Below, piece by piece: positions 31,280 through 40,412 of a DNA stretch of 40,634 nt (position 1 is the first letter of the stretch; every line of letters begins with the position of its first letter). Source of the stretch: Bacteroidia bacterium. GTDB lineage: Bacteria; Bacteroidota; Bacteroidia; UBA4408. The notes below the pieces were generated by a model that searched no databases, was not told where the DNA came from, and was given only the letters and a program-made list of their open reading frames with translations. The stretch lies in the NCBI GenBank assembly GCA_023262495.1, contig JALRAS010000004.1, positions 1 through 40,634 on the forward strand, read 5' to 3'. The translations under genes were made by a program, and so were the position numbers.

Positions 31280-33406
31280 ATGGCCGAAAAAAGAGATATC
31301 AAAAAAGACTTTCTGTGGCGCATCTACTTGATGTATGCCTTGATTGCTGTTTTTGGCTTCGCTGTGTTGCTGAAAGTTTTTACTATTCAATTTGCTGAAG
31401 GAGAACATTGGCGAAAAAAAGAGCAAGAACTTACCATGAAGTATATTGATATAGAAGCTTCACGCGGTAATATCTACTCATCAGATGGCAGTCTGATAGC
31501 TACCTCTGTTCCCATCTTTGAATTGAGAATGGATGTGGTATCAGAACCTGTTACCGATAAAATATTCTATGAGCAAGTAGACTCATTAAGTTATTGTTTA
31601 TCGAAAACATTCAAGCATAAAACATACAATGATTGGCGCACAGATTTAAAAAATGCAAGAAAGAGAAAAAATCGTTACTACCTGATTGCACGGAAGGTGG
31701 AATATGCCACCTTGAAAAAGGTACGCAGATTTCCAATATTCAGACTTGGTAAATACAAAGGCGGTTTAATTGTATTGCAAAAAAGCAGAAGAGAATTACC
31801 ATTCAAAAAGCTTGCTCAACGCACGATAGGTTATGACCGCAATTCAAAAAAACCACTTGGTATTGAGGGAGCTTTCAACAAGGATTTACAGGGTGTTAGC
31901 GGCAAACGCTTGGTGCAAAAAATTGCAGGCGACATTTACAAACCCATCAATCAGGACAATGAAATTGAACCAAAAGATGGGAACGACATCATTACAACCA
32001 TAGATGCAAATATTCAAGATGTGGCACATCACGCACTTGAAAAACAGTTGAAGGCACAAAATGCTCATCATGGCTGCGCAGTATTAATGGAAGTAAAAAC
32101 CGGTGCCATTAAAGCTATGGTGAATCTTTCAAGAGTTGATACAGGTGACTATGTTGAAACATTCAATTATGCTATTGGAGAAGGAACAGAGCCGGGTTCT
32201 ACCTTCAAGCTTGTATCCCTGATGGCTGCTTTTGAGGATGGCTACACCGATTTGGATGAGATGGTGAATATCGAAGGTGGAAGAAAAGCTTATGCAGGAG
32301 GCTATATCATGAGAGACTCTCACGAAGGTGATTATGGGCAATATTCGGTGAAACAAGTTTTTGAAAAATCATCCAATGTAGGCACGTCCAACATTATCAT
32401 GAAATACTACAAAAAACAACCACAAAAATTTATCGACAGAGTTTATTCATTCGGACTTCATCAACCGCTCGGAATTGCCCTTCCTGGAGAGGCTAAGCCA
32501 TACATTAAAGATACCAAATCAAAGTTGTGGAGCGCTTTATCACTTCCGTTGATGAGCATCGGCTATGAAGAGAAATTGACTCCACTGCAAACACTTAATT
32601 TTTACAACACTGTAGCTAACAATGGAAAGATGATGCGTCCGCAGTTTGTACAGGAAATCAGAAGCAAAGGCAAACTCATTAAATCATTTGCTCCGGAGAT
32701 CATCAATCCCGCTATATGTTCGCAAGCTACCATCGACAAAGCTAAAGCAATGATGGAAGGTGTGGTAAGAGAAGGTACTGCTACCAACTTGAGAACAGCA
32801 CCTTATCAAATTGCCGCCAAAACCGGTACTGCTCAAATTGCTATTGGCAACAAGGGTTACAGTATTGATGGCAAGAAATCATATATGGCATCATTATGCG
32901 GATACTTCCCAGCTAAAGATCCGTTATACTCTATCATCATTGTAGTATATGCTCCATCTAAAGCGGCCTATTACGGAAATGAAGTAGCAGGCCCAGTATT
33001 CAGAGAAATTGCCGATAAGGTATATAGCAATAGCATGGTAATTATTAAACCATTACAAAAAGACACCTCTCGATTTGTGATGCATGTGCCTGCAGTAAAG
33101 GGTGGAAAAAAACTTGATATCGATCGAGTTGCAAAAGAGCTCTCCTTAAAAACAGCGATTGATGATGTTGAGGCCAATTATGTGTGGGCGCAACCCGATA
33201 ATAAAATTATTCGCATGAAGGTGAATCCTACCAAAGAATTGGAAGTCCCTCAACTCGTTGGGATGGGTTTACGTGATGCACTTAGCATTTTAGAAAATCA
33301 AAAATTATTGGTAAAAGTAGTTGGCCGAGGAGTAATCAGAAAACAATCTCTTGTACCAGGGACTAAAGTTGTAAAAGGTTCCACAATAACCATTGAATTA
33401 TCATAA
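31280..33406 (+). CDS. ftsI: Division-type penicillin-binding protein (FtsI/PBP3) with C-terminal PASTA domain
   Basis: This is a septal D,D-transpeptidase that cross-links peptidoglycan with FtsW. Of 708 residues, one N-terminal membrane helix lies near 15-33. The pedestal (PBP dimer) domain follows, with IEASRGNIYSSDGSLIATSVP and GIEGAFNKDLQG. The transpeptidase domain has the catalytic STFK (Ser 307, Lys 310), SSN (364-366) and KTGTAQ (514-519). A single PASTA repeat closes the protein (VPQLVGMGLRDALSILENQ through KGSTITIELS). The PASTA tail resembles SpoVD/PBP2x and is common in Bacteroidota. The murE ATG follows after one base. Confidence 0.95.
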   Translation: MAEKRDIKKDFLWRIYLMYALIAVFGFAVLLKVFTIQFAEGEHWRKKEQELTMKYIDIEASRGNIYSSDGSLIATSVPIFELRMDVVSEPVTDKIFYEQVDSLSYCLSKTFKHKTYNDWRTDLKNARKRKNRYYLIARKVEYATLKKVRRFPIFRLGKYKGGLIVLQKSRRELPFKKLAQRTIGYDRNSKKPLGIEGAFNKDLQGVSGKRLVQKIAGDIYKPINQDNEIEPKDGNDIITTIDANIQDVAHHALEKQLKAQNAHHGCAVLMEVKTGAIKAMVNLSRVDTGDYVETFNYAIGEGTEPGSTFKLVSLMAAFEDGYTDLDEMVNIEGGRKAYAGGYIMRDSHEGDYGQYSVKQVFEKSSNVGTSNIIMKYYKKQPQKFIDRVYSFGLHQPLGIALPGEAKPYIKDTKSKLWSALSLPLMSIGYEEKLTPLQTLNFYNTVANNGKMMRPQFVQEIRSKGKLIKSFAPEIINPAICSQATIDKAKAMMEGVVREGTATNLRTAPYQIAAKTGTAQIAIGNKGYSIDGKKSYMASLCGYFPAKDPLYSIIIVVYAPSKAAYYGNEVAGPVFREIADKVYSNSMVIIKPLQKDTSRFVMHVPAVKGGKKLDIDRVAKELSLKTAIDDVEANYVWAQPDNKIIRMKVNPTKELEVPQLVGMGLRDALSILENQKLLVKVVGRGVIRKQSLVPGTKVVKGSTITIELS

Positions 33407-33407
33407 T

Positions 33408-34871
33408 ATGAAATTACTGAGTGATATCATATATAAAGCAGGAATTGAAGAAGTAATTGGGGCAACGCATGTCGCTGTTGAAGGTATTTGCTTCGATTCA
33501 CGCAAAGTGCACAAATTAAGTTTATTTGTTGCTGTAAAGGGCGTTAATAGTGACGGACACGCGTTTATTACTAAAGCCATAGAAGATGGGGCAGTAGCTA
33601 TTATTTGCAGCACAATACCTGTTACACTCGATAGTGATGTCACCTACATTCGTGTTAAAGATACTTCCTACGCACTTGGCATCATTGCTTCTAACTACTA
33701 CGATAACCCTTCCTCTAAATTAAAATTGGTTGGTGTTACCGGCACAAATGGTAAAACCACTACGGTTACTCTATTATATCATTTATTTAAATTCTTAGGT
33801 TATAAAACCGGCTTAATATCTACTGTAAAAAATTACATTGATACCACAGAATATGTTGCCACACACACCACTCCCGATGCTGTTCAGCTCAATGAATTGC
33901 TTGCAAAAATGGTTGATAGTGGTGTCAGCTACTGCTTCATGGAAGTTAGCTCACATAGTGTGGTTCAACATAGAATTACAGGACTTCAATTTGCCGGTGC
34001 AGGGTTCAGTAACATAACGCACGACCACCTCGATTATCATGGCACTTTTGATAATTACCTCGCAGCAAAAAAAGGGTTCTTTGATCAACTTCATTCCGAT
34101 GCTTTTGCCATCGTAAATAAAGATGACAGACACTTTGCAGTGATGATGCAAAACACGAAGGCCACTAAAAAAACCTGTTCCATTAATCAACAGGCAGACT
34201 TCAAAGCCAAGATTGTTGAGAATCATTTTGCTGGATTACAATTACAACTCGATGGCACCGAAGTTTGGACAAAATTGATCGGTAGTTTCAATGCCTACAA
34301 TATTTTAATGGTGTATGCCATAGCCATTAGTTTAAAGCAAGATAGGACCAATGTACTTACGGCAATAAGCAGCTTGAACCCTGTTGATGGCCGCTTTCAA
34401 TTTATTAGATCGAGCAATGGTATTACAGGTATTGTTGATTACGCGCACACACCCGATGCACTTATCAATGTATTAAAAACAATACACGACATCAGAACAG
34501 GCAATGAAAACATCATTGTAGTGGTAGGATGCGGAGGCGACAGAGATGCTGCCAAGCGACCTGTTATGGCTGAAATAGCATGTAAGATGGGCAATAAAGT
34601 AATCCTCACCTCCGACAATCCACGCAGTGAAAATGCAGATGAAATAATCAATCAAATGATGAAAGGTGTAGATGCCGTAGCCAAGAAAAAAGTACTGTGC
34701 ATAACCGATAGAAGGCAGGCCATTAAAACAGCTTGTGCACTTGCCAACAGCAATGATATTATACTGATTGCGGGTAAAGGACATGAAAAGTACCAAGAAA
34801 TAAATGGAGTTAAACATCCGTTCGATGATATGCACGAATTGAGTGAGCAATTACAAACAGAAAAAATTTAA
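33408..34871 (+). CDS. murE: UDP-MurNAc-L-Ala-D-Glu:meso-diaminopimelate ligase MurE
   Basis: MurE adds the third residue of the stem peptide. From ATG 33408 (a TTG five codons earlier lies inside the PBP gene) it has 487 residues. Visible are GVTGTNGKTTT (109-119), THTTPDAVQLNELL, FMEVSSHSVVQHR, THDHLDYHGTFDNYLAAKK and VDYAHTPDAL. DNPR (403-406) is the signature that contacts meso-diaminopimelate; lysine-adding enzymes lack this Arg. The cell wall is therefore probably of the meso-DAP type. The gene starts one base after the PBP stop (TAATATG). Confidence 0.96.
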   Translation: MKLLSDIIYKAGIEEVIGATHVAVEGICFDSRKVHKLSLFVAVKGVNSDGHAFITKAIEDGAVAIICSTIPVTLDSDVTYIRVKDTSYALGIIASNYYDNPSSKLKLVGVTGTNGKTTTVTLLYHLFKFLGYKTGLISTVKNYIDTTEYVATHTTPDAVQLNELLAKMVDSGVSYCFMEVSSHSVVQHRITGLQFAGAGFSNITHDHLDYHGTFDNYLAAKKGFFDQLHSDAFAIVNKDDRHFAVMMQNTKATKKTCSINQQADFKAKIVENHFAGLQLQLDGTEVWTKLIGSFNAYNILMVYAIAISLKQDRTNVLTAISSLNPVDGRFQFIRSSNGITGIVDYAHTPDALINVLKTIHDIRTGNENIIVVVGCGGDRDAAKRPVMAEIACKMGNKVILTSDNPRSENADEIINQMMKGVDAVAKKKVLCITDRRQAIKTACALANSNDIILIAGKGHEKYQEINGVKHPFDDMHELSEQLQTEKI

Positions 34872-34892: not shown

Positions 34893-36158
34893 ATGCTTTA
34901 TTACCTATTCGATTTTCTTGATAAACGCTTCGATTTTCCGGGTGCAGGCGTATTTCAATATATCTCTTTCCGCGCTTCTTTAGCCATTATTACTTCTCTT
35001 GTTATTTCAATGATTTTCGGCAAGAGAATTATTAACTACCTACGCAAAAAACAAGTTGGAGAAACTGTAAGAGACTTAGGACTTGAAGGACAAATTCAAA
35101 AGCAAGGAACACCAACTATGGGCGGCTTGATTATACTTAGCGCCATTTTAATACCTACACTACTATTTGCAAAACTTCATAATGTATATATCATATTGAT
35201 GATTTGTTCAACTGTTTGGTTAGGTTTAATAGGATTCTTAGATGACTATATCAAAGTATTCAAAAAAGACAAACAAGGCCTCAAAGGTACTTTTAAAATT
35301 ATCGGGCAGGTAGGATTAGGCCTCATTGTAGGATGTACATTATACTTCAATGACAGTGTTGTAATAAAGGAAAAAATAAAAAACAGAGAAGAGGTAGTTA
35401 TTGACGGACATGTATTTGAAGGCAGCATCGACTCTAAAAATCTTCCTAAATATTCAGCGCAACATAAATCAACCAAAACAACTATTCCATTCATTAAGGA
35501 TAATGAATTTGACTATGCCTCAGTACTTAAATTTTTAGGAGATAACTACCGCGATTGGGCATGGTTAATTTTCGTTCCAATGGTGATTTTAATTATCACT
35601 GCTGTATCGAACGGAGCAAATATGACTGATGGTTTAGACGGACTTGCCACAGGCACATCAGCTATTATTGGAGCAACACTTGGGGTATTTGCCTACGTAT
35701 CGGGTAACACCGTATTCGCCAACTACCTCAACATCATGTATATTCCAAACTCAGGTGAGTTGGTAATTTATATTGGTGCTTTTGTTGGTGCATGTGTTGG
35801 CTTCATGTGGTACAACTCATTTCCTGCACAAGTATTTATGGGCGATACCGGAAGTTTAGCTCTGGGTGGTATTATTGCTGTATTTGCATTAGCTATCCGC
35901 AAAGAGTTGTTGATTCCCATTTTGTGCGGCATTTTCCTTGTTGAAAATTTATCGGTGATGCTTCAAGTAGGATATTTTAAATATCAGAAAAAGAAGCATG
36001 GAATAGATTATGCCAAGGCCAACCGCCTATTCAAAATGGCCCCACTGCATCATCACTATCAAAAGAGCGGCTTTCATGAAGCCAAGATAGTTACACGCTT
36101 TTGGATTGTGGGGGTGATGCTTGCCATCCTAACATTCGTAACCCTCAAGCTTAGATAA
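34893..36158 (+). CDS. mraY: Phospho-MurNAc-pentapeptide translocase MraY, long form
   Basis: MraY makes lipid I from UDP-MurNAc-pentapeptide and undecaprenyl phosphate in the inner membrane. The 421 residues are about 60 longer than E. coli MraY. All catalytic segments are present: [51 protein letters not shown] and [11 protein letters not shown]. The extra length lies between helices, near residues 150-215 ([20 protein letters not shown] through [19 protein letters not shown]), a hydrophilic loop also seen in other Bacteroidota MraY. The start lies 21 bases after the murE stop. Confidence 0.96.
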
Positions 36159-36164
36159 TCAAAC

Positions 36165-37508
36165 ATGTCTCAAACTCCCAAAATAGCCATATTAGGAGCC
36201 GGTGAAAGCGGTGTGGGAAGTGCTGTGCTTGCAGCATCTAAAGGATATGATGTGCTTGTTAGTGATTTGGGTACGATAAAACCTAAATACAAACAAATGT
36301 TGATTGACAGAAGAATCAACTTTGAAGAAAATAAACATGATGAAGCATGGATACTCAGCGCAGAGGAAGTGATTAAAAGCCCGGGAATACCTGACAAAGC
36401 TCCATTGATTATAAAGTTGCGCGAAAAAGGAATACCGGTTATTTCAGAAATAGAATTTGCCGCACGCTACACCAAGGCCACACTTATTGGCATTAGCGGT
36501 ACAAACGGCAAAACAACAACCACTTTGCTTACTTACCACTTACTAAAAAAAGGTGGACTAAATGTTGGATTGGCAGGAAATGTAGGAAAGAGTTTTGCCC
36601 TGCAGGTAGCCGAAAATGACTTCGATTATTATGTACTCGAACTGAGCAGTTTTCAATTAGACGGCATGTATCATGTAAGGTTGAATATTGCTGTTTTACT
36701 AAATATTACGCCCGATCATCTTGACCGATACAACTATGAGTTGCAGCATTATGTAAATGCTAAATTTAGAATCATTCAGAATCAAACTGAGGCCGATTGC
36801 TTTATTTACTGTCATGATGATGAGTTGCTGATGAAACACTTCAACAGCTTTCACACTGCTGCTAAACTGCTGCCATTTAGTTTACAAACCCACTTTGATG
36901 AAGGCGGTTACATCGAAAACGAAAATTTAATTATTAACTATAACCATAATACATTCTCTATGTCAATCCACGACCTCGCCTTACAAGGCAAACACAATCA
37001 GTACAACTCAATGGCTGCAAGTCTATCTGCCCGTGTACTTGAAGTACGAAAAGAAATCATTCGCGAAAGCTTAGAAGACTTTGTGAATGTTGAACACCGT
37101 TTAGAATTTGTTGCCAAAGTGCACGGCATCGAATTTATCAACGATTCAAAAGCTACCAACGTAAACTCTACTTGGTATGCCCTTGAGAGCATGAATAATC
37201 CTGTTGTTTGGATTGTTGGTGGGCAAGACAAAGGTAATGATTACAGCATGTTGATGGCCCTTGTGAAAGACAAAGTGAAAGCGATTGTTTGCCTTGGTAA
37301 AGACAACACAAAAATTCACCAAGCATTTAAGGGAGTTGTTACCTTAATTGAAGATGCGAGTACAGCCGAAGAAGCCGTTAAAAAAGCTTACCGCTTGGGT
37401 AAGAAAGGCGATATCGTGCTATTGTCTCCGGCATGCGCAAGTTTTGACTTGTTTGAAAACTACGAAGATCGTGGACATCAATTCAAACAAGCAGTAAGAT
37501 CATTATAA
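36165..37508 (+). CDS. murD: UDP-MurNAc-L-alanine:D-glutamate ligase MurD
   Basis: MurD adds D-Glu to UDP-MurNAc-L-Ala. The 447 residues hold all three Mur-ligase domains. The N-terminal UMAG-binding Rossmann fold starts IAILGAGESGVG. The central ATPase has GISGTNGKTTTTLL (109-122), YVLELSSFQLD and NITPDHLDRY. The C-terminal domain carries EHRLEFV, NDSKATN (326-332, with Lys 329 and Thr 331), GGQDKGND (Lys 356) and SPACASFDLFENYEDRG. These are the residues known to hold ATP and D-Glu, so the enzyme looks fully active. It is followed after 23 bases by a paralogue of its own C-terminal domain. Confidence 0.96.
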   Translation: MSQTPKIAILGAGESGVGSAVLAASKGYDVLVSDLGTIKPKYKQMLIDRRINFEENKHDEAWILSAEEVIKSPGIPDKAPLIIKLREKGIPVISEIEFAARYTKATLIGISGTNGKTTTTLLTYHLLKKGGLNVGLAGNVGKSFALQVAENDFDYYVLELSSFQLDGMYHVRLNIAVLLNITPDHLDRYNYELQHYVNAKFRIIQNQTEADCFIYCHDDELLMKHFNSFHTAAKLLPFSLQTHFDEGGYIENENLIINYNHNTFSMSIHDLALQGKHNQYNSMAASLSARVLEVRKEIIRESLEDFVNVEHRLEFVAKVHGIEFINDSKATNVNSTWYALESMNNPVVWIVGGQDKGNDYSMLMALVKDKVKAIVCLGKDNTKIHQAFKGVVTLIEDASTAEEAVKKAYRLGKKGDIVLLSPACASFDLFENYEDRGHQFKQAVRSL

Positions 37509-37531: not shown

Positions 37532-38104
37532 ATGGAAAAGTCTCAGAGCAGCAGCAGAAGCACCATGAAGGCAACTTCAATGGACCGATTAATTAAAATC
37601 AGAAGAGATTTTATTAAGGACCGATTGAACAATATGCAAGTTGAAGAACACAACTTTGAAATAGTTCAAGAGGTTAAAGGAGTAACTTATATCAACCATT
37701 CGGCTTCTACTGACGTGGACAGTACTTGGCTGGCATTAGAAAAGGTTGATAAAAATATCATTTGGATTGTAGGTGGTGTCGACCGAGGTAATGATTACTC
37801 CATGCTGAAAGATCTTGTAAAAGATAAGGTTGTACACATTGTTTGTTTGGGCAATTACATCACAAAAATTTTTAAAGCATTCAGTCAATTCGAAGAAAAA
37901 TTAATCGTTAATGCCAGCAGTGCTGACGAAGCAGTGCATCATGCTGCTACGCTCGCAAAAGCCGGTGATACTGTTTTATTTTCGCCTACCTGTGCCAGCT
38001 ATGATTTATTCGAAAATGTGGAGGCAAGAGGCAATGAATTTAAACGTGCTGTTAATGATTTATTGAATAACACCTTGCATCTAAGATATCCATCATCAAA
38101 TTAA
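37532..38104 (+). CDS. Freestanding MurD C-terminal-domain paralogue, probably non-catalytic
   Basis: The 190-residue protein aligns without gaps, over most of its length, to the last part of the neighbouring MurD. The match begins at the helix before EHRLEFV (here EEHNFEIV, about residue 40) and runs through the whole D-Glu-binding domain; by eye roughly half the residues are identical. It has no N-terminal or ATPase domain. Key positions differ: MurD NDSKATN is NHSASTD (55-61), so the Asp and Lys are lost. GGQDKGND is GGVDRGND (Lys to Arg 85). SPACASFDLFEN is almost kept as SPTCASYDLFEN. The first ~20 residues are Ser/Lys-rich and unique. The frame is intact, so this is not an obvious relic. 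A regulatory or scaffolding role toward MurD or the divisome is inference. Confidence 0.88.
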   Translation: MEKSQSSSRSTMKATSMDRLIKIRRDFIKDRLNNMQVEEHNFEIVQEVKGVTYINHSASTDVDSTWLALEKVDKNIIWIVGGVDRGNDYSMLKDLVKDKVVHIVCLGNYITKIFKAFSQFEEKLIVNASSADEAVHHAATLAKAGDTVLFSPTCASYDLFENVEARGNEFKRAVNDLLNNTLHLRYPSSN

Positions 38105-38119
38105 AATTAATGCGAATCA

Positions 38120-39307
38120 ATGAACAGTTTAACAAACATCAAGCTTAAAGGAGACCGTGTTATATGGGCTGTTGTGGTTATACTTTCAGTAATTTCTTTA
38201 CTGGTGGTATACAGTTCAACGGGTACTTTGGCTTACAAATTTCAATCGGGAAATACCGAGTATTATTTGTTTAAACATGGATTCATTTTATTGTTTGGTT
38301 TGGGTTTGATGTATATGACTCATAACATTAAGTACACCTACTTTTCGGGGATTTCACTCATTGCTATTTTTCTTGCTATCCCACTCTTGCTGTTGACCTT
38401 GATGAAAGGTAGTAACCTGAATGAAGCTAGTCGTTGGTTGGCACTTCCAGGAACATCTCTCACCTTTCAAACATCGGATTTTGCAAAGCTTGCACTCATC
38501 ATGTACGTATCGCGTGTGCTTTCGCAAAAACAAGAAAAAATTGAAAGTTTGAAGGAGGCATTTATTCCAGTTGTTTTACCGGTAGTAATTGTATGTGCTT
38601 TGATTTTACCTGCCAACTTCTCGACTGCTGCAGTATTATTTACCACCTGTTTTGTAATGATGTTTATTGGCCGTATTAGTTATAAACATTTACTTTCTTT
38701 GATGGGTATGGGATTGGTGGCAGTATTACTCATACTGGCTGTAGGAAAGTTAGCACCAAAAGTATTCCCACGTTTTGGAACATGGATGAAAAGGATAGAA
38801 AATTTCAGCAGTAATGAAAAGGATGCGAAAGGTAATTTTCAAGTTGAACAATCAAAAATTGCTATTGCTACAGGAGGAATTATTGGCAAAGGGCCCGGCA
38901 AAAGTTCGCAAAGAAATTTTTTACCTCATCCATATTCCGATTTTATTTATGCCATCATCATTGAAGAGTATGGTTTATTTGCGGCACTCGTGATACTCTT
39001 ACTATACCTGATATTGTTGTTCAGAGGAACTCGTATTGCCACTAAAAGCCCGCGTATGTTTGGTTCATTACTCGCCTTTGGATGCGCATTTAGTTTGGTC
39101 TTTCAGGCCATGATCAATATGGCGGTAGCAACCAACTTATTCCCTGTTACAGGTCAACCATTACCAATGCTCAGTATGGGAGGAACATCCATTTGGTTTA
39201 CTAGCATAGGGATTGGAATTATACTGAGCGTGAGTGCCGGAGAAGCTGAGAAAACAACATCAAAAGAAGATCAACTTTCATCAGAACAGGAGGTATCAAT
39301 TGCTTAA
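38120..39307 (+). CDS. ftsW: Septal peptidoglycan polymerase FtsW
   Basis: FtsW is the SEDS glycosyltransferase that polymerises lipid II at the division site with its PBP partner. The 395 residues contain about ten transmembrane helices. SEDS signatures are visible: LLVVYSSTGTLA near the start, EASRWLALPGTSLTFQTSDFAKLALI, QVEQSKIAIATGGIIGKGPGKSSQRNFLP split here as QSKIAIATGGIIGKGPGKS and RNFLPHPYSDFIYAIIIEEYG, and PVTGQPLPMLSMGGTS. A charged ~20-residue tail ends the protein. Its last bases carry the murG ribosome-binding site and start, an 8-base overlap. Confidence 0.95.
   Translation: MNSLTNIKLKGDRVIWAVVVILSVISLLVVYSSTGTLAYKFQSGNTEYYLFKHGFILLFGLGLMYMTHNIKYTYFSGISLIAIFLAIPLLLLTLMKGSNLNEASRWLALPGTSLTFQTSDFAKLALIMYVSRVLSQKQEKIESLKEAFIPVVLPVVIVCALILPANFSTAAVLFTTCFVMMFIGRISYKHLLSLMGMGLVAVLLILAVGKLAPKVFPRFGTWMKRIENFSSNEKDAKGNFQVEQSKIAIATGGIIGKGPGKSSQRNFLPHPYSDFIYAIIIEEYGLFAALVILLLYLILLFRGTRIATKSPRMFGSLLAFGCAFSLVFQAMINMAVATNLFPVTGQPLPMLSMGGTSIWFTSIGIGIILSVSAGEAEKTTSKEDQLSSEQEVSIA
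39288..39293 (+). promoter_or_regulatory. Shine-Dalgarno AGGAGG fixing the murG TTG start
   Basis: AGGAGG, six bases before TTG 39300. Strong Shine-Dalgarno sites are uncommon in this phylum, and this one lies inside the end of ftsW. Confidence 0.75.
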
Positions 39308-40412
39308 AGTAATCATCAGCGGTGGAGGCACAGGTGGCCATATTTTTCCTGCCATAGCAATCGCTAATGCATTAAAGGAAAAATACAAACTGGTAGATAT
39401 ACTATTTGTTGGGGCATTAGGTAAAATGGAAATGGAAAAGGTACCTGCTGCCGGTTATCCAATCGAAGGACTCAATATTAGTGGTTTGCAAAGAAGTTTA
39501 TCTCTCAGCAACTTGGCATTCCCATTTAAATTATTTCAGAGCATCAGACGCTCTAAACAAATTATCAAATCATTTAAACCCGATGTTGTGGTTGGTGTAG
39601 GTGGGTTTGCTAGCGGTCCCCTGTTGTATGCCGCATCCAAAATGAAAATCCCTGCGCTTATTCATGAGGCCAATTCTTATCCCGGCATTACCAATAAACT
39701 TTTAGGTAATTGGGTGCAAACTATTTGCGTGGCTTACGACAACATGGAAAAATATTTTCCGAAGGAAAAACTTATTCTAACAGGAAATCCTGTACGCAGT
39801 GACATTCTTAATTTAAATGGTAAAAGAGAAAGAGGTTTAGAATATTTCAAATTGAAAGACCAACAAAAAACGCTCTTTGTTACCGGTGGAAGTCTTGGTT
39901 CGAAAACCATCAATGAAAGTATTTTAAAAAATCTTGAATTGATTGCTTCTCAAAATATTCAACTGATTTGGCAAACTGGAAAATCATTTTTCAGTACCGC
40001 TGAAGCTGCAGTTAAACCATATGAAAACAAAGGTATATATGCGTATGAATTTATTTCTAAGATGGATTATGCCTACGCTGTTGCTGATTTGGTTGTATCG
40101 CGTGCAGGTGCAGGTGCAGTTGCCGAATTAAGTTTGGTTACAAAAGCAGCAGTGCTAATCCCCTACCCGCTCGCTGCGGAAGATCATCAAACAAAAAACG
40201 CATTAGCACTTGTCAACCACAACGCTGCTGTATTGATTAAAGATGCAGAGGCAAGAGAGAAATTAGGAACAGTGATTACAGAACTCATGAGTAATGATGA
40301 AAAAAGAATGAAACTCGAACATCAAATTACTCAGTTAGCCATTAGAGATTCGGCTGAAGTTATTGCCTCGGAAGTTTACAGATTAGGAACACAAAATAAA
40401 AAGAACAAGTGA
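39300..40412 (+). CDS. murG: UDP-GlcNAc:lipid I N-acetylglucosaminyltransferase MurG, TTG start
   Basis: MurG converts lipid I to lipid II at the inner face of the membrane. From TTG 39300 it has 370 residues and begins LLKVIISGGGTGGHIFPA (TTG read as Met), the GGGTGGH motif near residues 9-15 being diagnostic. VVGVGGFASGPLLYAA, IHEANSYPGITNKLL, TGNPVRSDIL, VTGGSLGSKTINE, VVSRAGAGAVAEL and PYPLAAEDHQTKNA complete the GT28 pattern. A longer reading from 39234 exists but would lack this start site and has no family similarity. It overlaps the end of ftsW by eight bases and murC by four (GTGA). Confidence 0.94.
   Translation: MLKVIISGGGTGGHIFPAIAIANALKEKYKLVDILFVGALGKMEMEKVPAAGYPIEGLNISGLQRSLSLSNLAFPFKLFQSIRRSKQIIKSFKPDVVVGVGGFASGPLLYAASKMKIPALIHEANSYPGITNKLLGNWVQTICVAYDNMEKYFPKEKLILTGNPVRSDILNLNGKRERGLEYFKLKDQQKTLFVTGGSLGSKTINESILKNLELIASQNIQLIWQTGKSFFSTAEAAVKPYENKGIYAYEFISKMDYAYAVADLVVSRAGAGAVAELSLVTKAAVLIPYPLAAEDHQTKNALALVNHNAAVLIKDAEAREKLGTVITELMSNDEKRMKLEHQITQLAIRDSAEVIASEVYRLGTQNKKNK

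Follow-up and report, generated by a model that had tools for sequence, protein, structure and literature searches.

A stand-alone, non-catalytic MurD C-terminal domain encoded beside ftsW in the dcw cluster of Bacteroidia

Between murD and ftsW, the dcw cluster of a bacterium of the class Bacteroidia carries an additional gene (37532..38104, + strand) encoding a freestanding, 190-residue paralogue of the MurD C-terminal domain. The product is a non-catalytic, stand-alone MurD C-terminal domain that cannot ligate, and it belongs to a real, conserved family of this class, found beside ftsW in the dcw cluster. The window, i.e. the whole stretch of DNA analysed, is 40,634 nucleotides long (contig JALRAS010000004.1). 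The cluster around the copy is compact, in the order ftsI-murE-mraY-murD-copy-ftsW-murG, with all genes on the + strand: murE at 33393..34871, mraY at 34893..36158, murD at 36165..37508, ftsW, a near-constant neighbour of the copy family, at 38120..39307, and the murG ORF at 39301..40412, its presumed start being a TTG near 39301. Gaps of 23 bp and 15 bp separate the copy from murD and from ftsW, respectively. The neighbouring murD is full length, with the catalytic residues of its C-terminal domain intact, and matches the NCBIfam murD profile (TIGR01087) with 414.8 bits against a cut-off of 211.95.

The copy is an intact frame of 190 codons, open from its ATG to its TAA. BLASTP aligns its product with the adjacent MurD over 175 residues, with 49% identity and 68% positives (E 3e-54); the homologous part of MurD, residues 274-447, is encoded at 36984..37505 (+). 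The copy spans the last helix of the MurD central domain and the whole C-terminal domain, as had been described in an earlier note made from the DNA letters. Since homology begins at MurD residue 274, both the UDP-binding N-terminal domain and the central ATPase domain are absent, which bears out the earlier deduction that the protein cannot ligate alone. Pfam Mur_ligase_C (PF02875) recognizes the copy with 37.7 bits (E 4.3e-9; gathering cut-off 28.4), while TIGR01087 gives 146.7 bits, over profile positions 278-440 only, and thus below its curated cut-off of 211.95. A structure model predicted from 22 family members has a pLDDT of 85.5, with a core above 90, and the solved structures closest to it in Foldseek are MurD C-terminal domains (E 4.8e-14, TM 0.69 on the query), placing the protein in the Mur-ligase C-terminal fold. 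The first ten residues (37532..37561, +) form a lineage-specific tail of low confidence (pLDDT ~49) that varies in the alignment. A predicted helix follows at residues 9-33 (37556..37630, +) and corresponds to the final helix of MurD's central domain. At the other end, a tail of 13 residues (38063..38101, +) extends past the end of MurD, and its last part is found only in this genus.

Residues are given here in E. coli MurD numbering, taken from the alignment. The MurD motifs NDSKATN, GGQDKG and SPACASFDLFEN read NHSASTD, GGVDRG and SPTCASYDLFEN in the copy, exactly as the earlier note had it. In NHSASTD (37694..37714, +) D317 and K319 are lost and T321 is kept, and in GGVDRG (37772..37789, +) K348 is replaced by Arg. 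The FSPTCASYDLFEN loop (37979..38017, +) keeps S410, P411 and S415 and has the family-typical change of L409 to Phe. The complete set of changes is R302N, D317H, K319A, N322D, K348R and F422V, of which R302N and F422V are additional to those listed earlier, and H301, E304, N316, T321, S410, P411, S415, R425 and G426 are retained. At the six catalytic and substrate positions of MurD (R302, D317, K319, T321, K348 and S415), the copy therefore has N, H, A, T, R and S. In MurD, the carboxylates of D-Glu, or of its mimics, are contacted by K348, T321, S415 and F422 (PMC3527612), and R302 serves as the handle of the hinge on which the C-terminal domain swings, touching the alpha-phosphate of ADP (PMC4816537). 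Across the family, near-invariance (family-weighted frequencies) is found at H301 (0.99), E304 (0.99), N316 (0.98), P411 (1.0), R425 (0.97), G426 (0.99) and F430 (0.99). Lys is rare at position 348 (0.15, family-weighted), and N322 and the GGxDKGN loop are likewise lost in most families. R302 is missing in about one third of the families, that of the window included; from the glutamate site, S415 and T321 persist in the window copy and in many families. Residues that contact glutamate and the nucleotide have been lost in most families. Two residues are specific to the copies, A329S (77%) and L409F (71%), and are nil or nearly nil in MurD (family-weighted). Judging from these sequences, what is constrained in the copies is the fold together with the hinge-side His and Glu, and glutamate binding in general is not.

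A freestanding copy occurs in ~80 of 396 Bacteroidia genomes, under ~18 family codes (f1, f4, f5, f9, f10, f12, f13, part of f21, f25, f29, f31, f37, part of f41, f42, f44, f46, f55 and f74), nearly always in the order murD-copy-ftsW. With its length and its position on the same strand as its neighbours, the window copy is typical of this proposed family of ~155-200 residue proteins. The other three genomes of its genus all have it, with identities of 78, 69 and 63%, as do three of the four other genomes of its family, G005 being the one that lacks it. Carriers bearing names come from environmental assemblies, with the labels Sediminibacterium, Chitinophaga, Flavobacteriales or simply Bacteroidetes. 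Of the 85 copies, 76 have their start no more than 150 bp from the murD stop, and 75 have their end no more than 300 bp from the start of ftsW; the gaps to the neighbours are mostly shorter than 40 bp and some genes overlap. Those off this position are chiefly second-locus copies in f4, f42 and f46. The copy of G048 is still beside ftsW although murD is on a different contig there. Most Bacteroidia are without the copy, which shows that it is not generally needed, and in many genomes ftsW directly follows murD. No clear copy was found among ~185 genomes of other Bacteroidota classes, two of which gave two weak matches.

Several loci depart from the common arrangement. G005 (L218) has a gene for an MBOAT acyltransferase and one for an AlgX-like protein between murD and ftsW in place of the copy, while G288 (L080) has two tandem freestanding copies there. 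A second, divergent MurD C-domain paralogue lies far from the dcw cluster at L049, L109, L110 and L111 (f4), L048 (f46) and L045 (f42); it adjoins an aldehyde dehydrogenase gene in f4 and f46 and, in f4, also an ORF with an LEA_2 domain. G335 encodes, outside dcw, a MurD C-domain paralogue whose N-terminus is extended by a CxxC zinc-ribbon-like segment (L078:2170-2766); this may be a contaminant.

The copy family is under purifying selection, with dN/dS far below 1. By the NG86 method, dN and dS are 0.011 and 0.40 for the pair G010/G119, 0.047 and 0.64 for G334/G317, and 0.005 and 0.34 for G096/G150; within the genus of the window they are 0.165 and 1.64, this dS being near saturation. In a neutral simulation, fewer than 1% of 570-bp ORFs were still open at 0.25 substitutions per site. 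The copy is thus almost certainly functional. The earlier note had suggested that it was retained by selection and had named absence from relatives, neutral dN/dS and frameshifts as marks of a relic; all three came out against a relic. Nevertheless, the evolution of the copy is in most families 2-7 times faster than that of the corresponding domain of MurD, an unusual pace for a core scaffold.

In a tree of 57 copies and 49 MurD C-terminal domains, a single branch with support of 98/95 parts the copies from MurD. The copies thus form a clade of their own, in the comparison that the earlier note had called for, and those of the window's group side with the other copies rather than with the neighbouring MurD. 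This separation points to an ancient duplication followed by many losses, although long branches and the f12 family call for caution. In a second tree, to which the free-domain-only sequences described below were added, the window copies keep their place (97/88), f12 shifts to the MurD side and the support for a single clade is weakened. A single origin of all copies, well supported at first, is accordingly less certain, and there would have been one or two origins.

Two families stand apart. In f12 (L036, L065, L066, L071, L072, L082, L084 and L085), MurD evolves unusually fast and the free copy slowly, with its catalytic residues complete: R302, D317, K319, T321, N322, K348 and S415 are kept in all eight copies, and dN is 0.005 for the copy versus 0.073 for MurD's own domain. 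A purely structural role leaves this unexplained. Met266 of MurD, a site where Met is otherwise common, is lost throughout f12 (8/8). Between copy and ftsW, f12 loci also contain an ORF of 71-92 residues with one apparent membrane helix (L036:3601-3879 and L072:2688-2903); the one that was tested had no Pfam match. In f33 (L020:2001-2372, L112, L113 and L116), ORFs of only 99-123 residues lie between murD and ftsW. These are probably strongly eroded members of the copy family, as suggested by an hhalign comparison with the family (65% probability, E 6e-5 for a single comparison) and supported by their position.

The free domain was also reached by a second route, in Bacteroidales that trimmed murD itself; neither this nor the class-wide extent of the family had been anticipated in the earlier note. 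In G260, the gene order is mraY-[177-residue MurD C-domain]-ftsW; elsewhere in the genome, MurL and MurD are encoded as a fusion. A survey of 60 genomes of the same order, one per family, revealed ten more with this arrangement, nine of them with a domain of ~176-185 residues and G612 with one of 170, and with no full murD there. MurL was found in 22 of the 60 genomes. Of the 20 MurL-positive genomes with a readable dcw cluster, ten have the free domain only and ten a full murD; the corresponding numbers among 37 MurL-negative genomes are one (G612) and 36. The association of free-domain-only clusters (11 families, ten with MurL) with MurL is significant (Fisher p 4e-5), although the families are not wholly independent of one another. 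A MurD2-like ligase, matching in its own C-domain region or over its full length, is also present in eight of the ten genomes that are free-domain-only and MurL-positive; of the other two, G648 yielded MurL alone and G652 a MurD2 match that runs off its contig. A MurD C-domain stands next to ftsW in all readable MurL-positive genomes, including those that no longer have the canonical ligase. The majority of the free-domain-only sequences fall with MurD and not with the copies (95/91; G598 and G648 are uncertain), meaning that these genes derive from MurD rather than from the family of the window, and six of the 11 have Phe or Tyr at L409, as copies do. They mostly begin at or near a Met equivalent to MurD residue 266. 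An internal translation start at this Met was considered, but the Met is no special evidence for it, as it is also common there in other classes (15/20). In the genome of the window, MurL was not detected at E 1e-12.

Other features of these Bacteroidales were recorded along the way. Genes for MurL and MurD2 are adjacent or fused in many families (L217, L245-L260), while the taxon list quoted from PMC8788868 does not include Bacteroidota. One named example of a free-domain-only cluster, L208, is labelled uncultured Bacteroidales. The free domain in the dcw cluster of G612 (L238) is very divergent, and neither MurL, MurD2 nor a full MurD was found in this genome (98% complete).

The maintenance of the C-terminal domain beside ftsW where the canonical ligase has gone suggests that this domain would hold a second, non-catalytic role beside ligation. 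We propose, at a little less than an even chance, that MurD of Bacteroidia has two jobs, and that a non-catalytic function of its C-terminal domain, on the dcw/FtsW side, was uncoupled from ligation at least twice: by duplication in the lineage of the window (~18 families), where this job would have passed to the duplicate, and by stripping of murD in lineages that acquired MurD2 and MurL, where murD itself would have been cut down to that domain. As to what the job is, binding of Mur ligases to MurG and MreB is known from other bacteria, with MurD, MurE and MurF of Thermotoga maritima as the example (PMC4816537, PMC6420597). On this ground we tentatively favour a subunit that would dock or scaffold precursor synthesis on its membrane side. 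The free copy, relieved of the constraints of catalysis, would have kept a binding surface. Among the earlier guesses, docking near FtsW would fit best, judging from gene position only. Evolutionary-rate correlation of the copy with MurD, FtsW, MurG and MraY pointed to no clear partner, nor did the structure model described below, built from only 8 sequences, place the copy confidently against MurD.

The copy might instead regulate MurD, the free domain competing with the enzyme's own mobile C-domain for the ATPase domain and so tuning or inhibiting D-Glu ligation. The two genes are adjacent and probably co-translated, the N-terminal helix of the copy corresponds to the last helix of the MurD central domain, and the C-domain of MurD swings on a hinge with R302 as its handle (PMC4816537). 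However, about a third of the families, including the window's, have lost R302, the copy of G048 stays with ftsW while murD is elsewhere, and an AlphaFold2 model of a read-through MurD+copy protein from the same genus (L003, stop read as Gly; 8 sequences) reached a pTM of 0.55 with no confident arrangement or MurD contact. Persistence of the free domain in lineages without canonical full-length MurD disfavours in particular the strict regulatory subunit envisaged earlier, and we regard regulation as unlikely. It is very unlikely that the copy is a spare or exchangeable catalytic domain working in trans for MurD or another Mur ligase: the intact, slowly evolving f12 copies would suit such a role, at least in that family, but every MurD examined has a complete C-terminal domain and nearly all other copy families, including that of the window, have lost catalytic residues. 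A sensor of D-Glu or UDP-MurNAc-L-Ala, also put forward in the earlier note, could make use of the S415 and T321 that many copies retain; it is disfavoured, and has a slim chance at best, because most families have lost K348 and N322, the GGxDKGN loop around K348 is degenerate, the N-terminal UDP-sugar domain is absent and the locus is still held by members eroded to 99-123 residues.

One may also ask whether the protein matters at all. If the DNA or the open frame alone were useful, as a promoter, an mRNA element or a leader for translational coupling of ftsW in a duplicated murD 3' end, the nearly constant place just upstream of ftsW, the small gaps and the trimming of murD from its 5' side in other lineages would follow easily. 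The strong constraint at the amino-acid level, the conservation of the fold, the extra copies far from ftsW in f4, f42 and f46 and the many genomes where ftsW directly follows murD without such an element make this highly improbable. Fast evolution in many families, the eroded versions of f33 and the loss in G005 are what a functionless, decaying relic of tandem duplication might show. With intact copies in ~80 genomes, low dN/dS and conserved family-specific residues, this reading has hardly any likelihood left; synteny, dN/dS and ORF survival all contradict it.

The copy can be compared with several known systems. MurD, homologous to it over 175 residues, has the same predicted fold and an adjacent gene, and differs by its N-terminal and central domains and by the six residues changed in the copy. 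MurD2 of the MurD2/MurL pathway of Xanthomonas (PMC8788868) shares Arg at K348 with the window copy, and Pro at A414 with many other family members, but is a full-length ligase; the link to MurL lies in the Bacteroidales lineages that cut canonical murD down to the free domain. MurT/GatD is a two-protein system in which one of the subunits is a relative of Mur ligases, but MurT has an ATPase domain and a glutaminase partner, whereas the copy has no ATPase domain and is flanked by murD and ftsW, with no adjacent glutaminase. PAP11, a MurE-like subunit of the plastid RNA polymerase whose structure is a weak fold match to the model of the copy, exemplifies a Mur-ligase fold in a large complex outside the ligase role, with, however, a full Mur ligase architecture and in an unrelated complex. 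Mur ligases docking on membrane-side factors are known from the MurG/MreB scaffolding of Thermotoga and Bordetella (PMC6420597, PMC4816537), where no stand-alone ligase domain has been described. No protein of this kind is described in the literature searched, mainly open-access, and the curated families searched contain no stand-alone, non-catalytic MurD C-domain family; the fold itself is known.

Work on MurD, a textbook enzyme and drug target, has dealt almost exclusively with ligation. That a conserved, free C-terminal domain has outlived the canonical ligase in some lineages hints that MurD may have a hidden structural or regulatory role. For the Mur ligases themselves, evidence of a complex is lacking according to PMC4816537. 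The copy, a small soluble protein, would lend itself to finding the partner of the MurD C-terminal domain, and it bears on the continuing debate over a physical complex of the Mur enzymes with MraY, MurG and FtsW.
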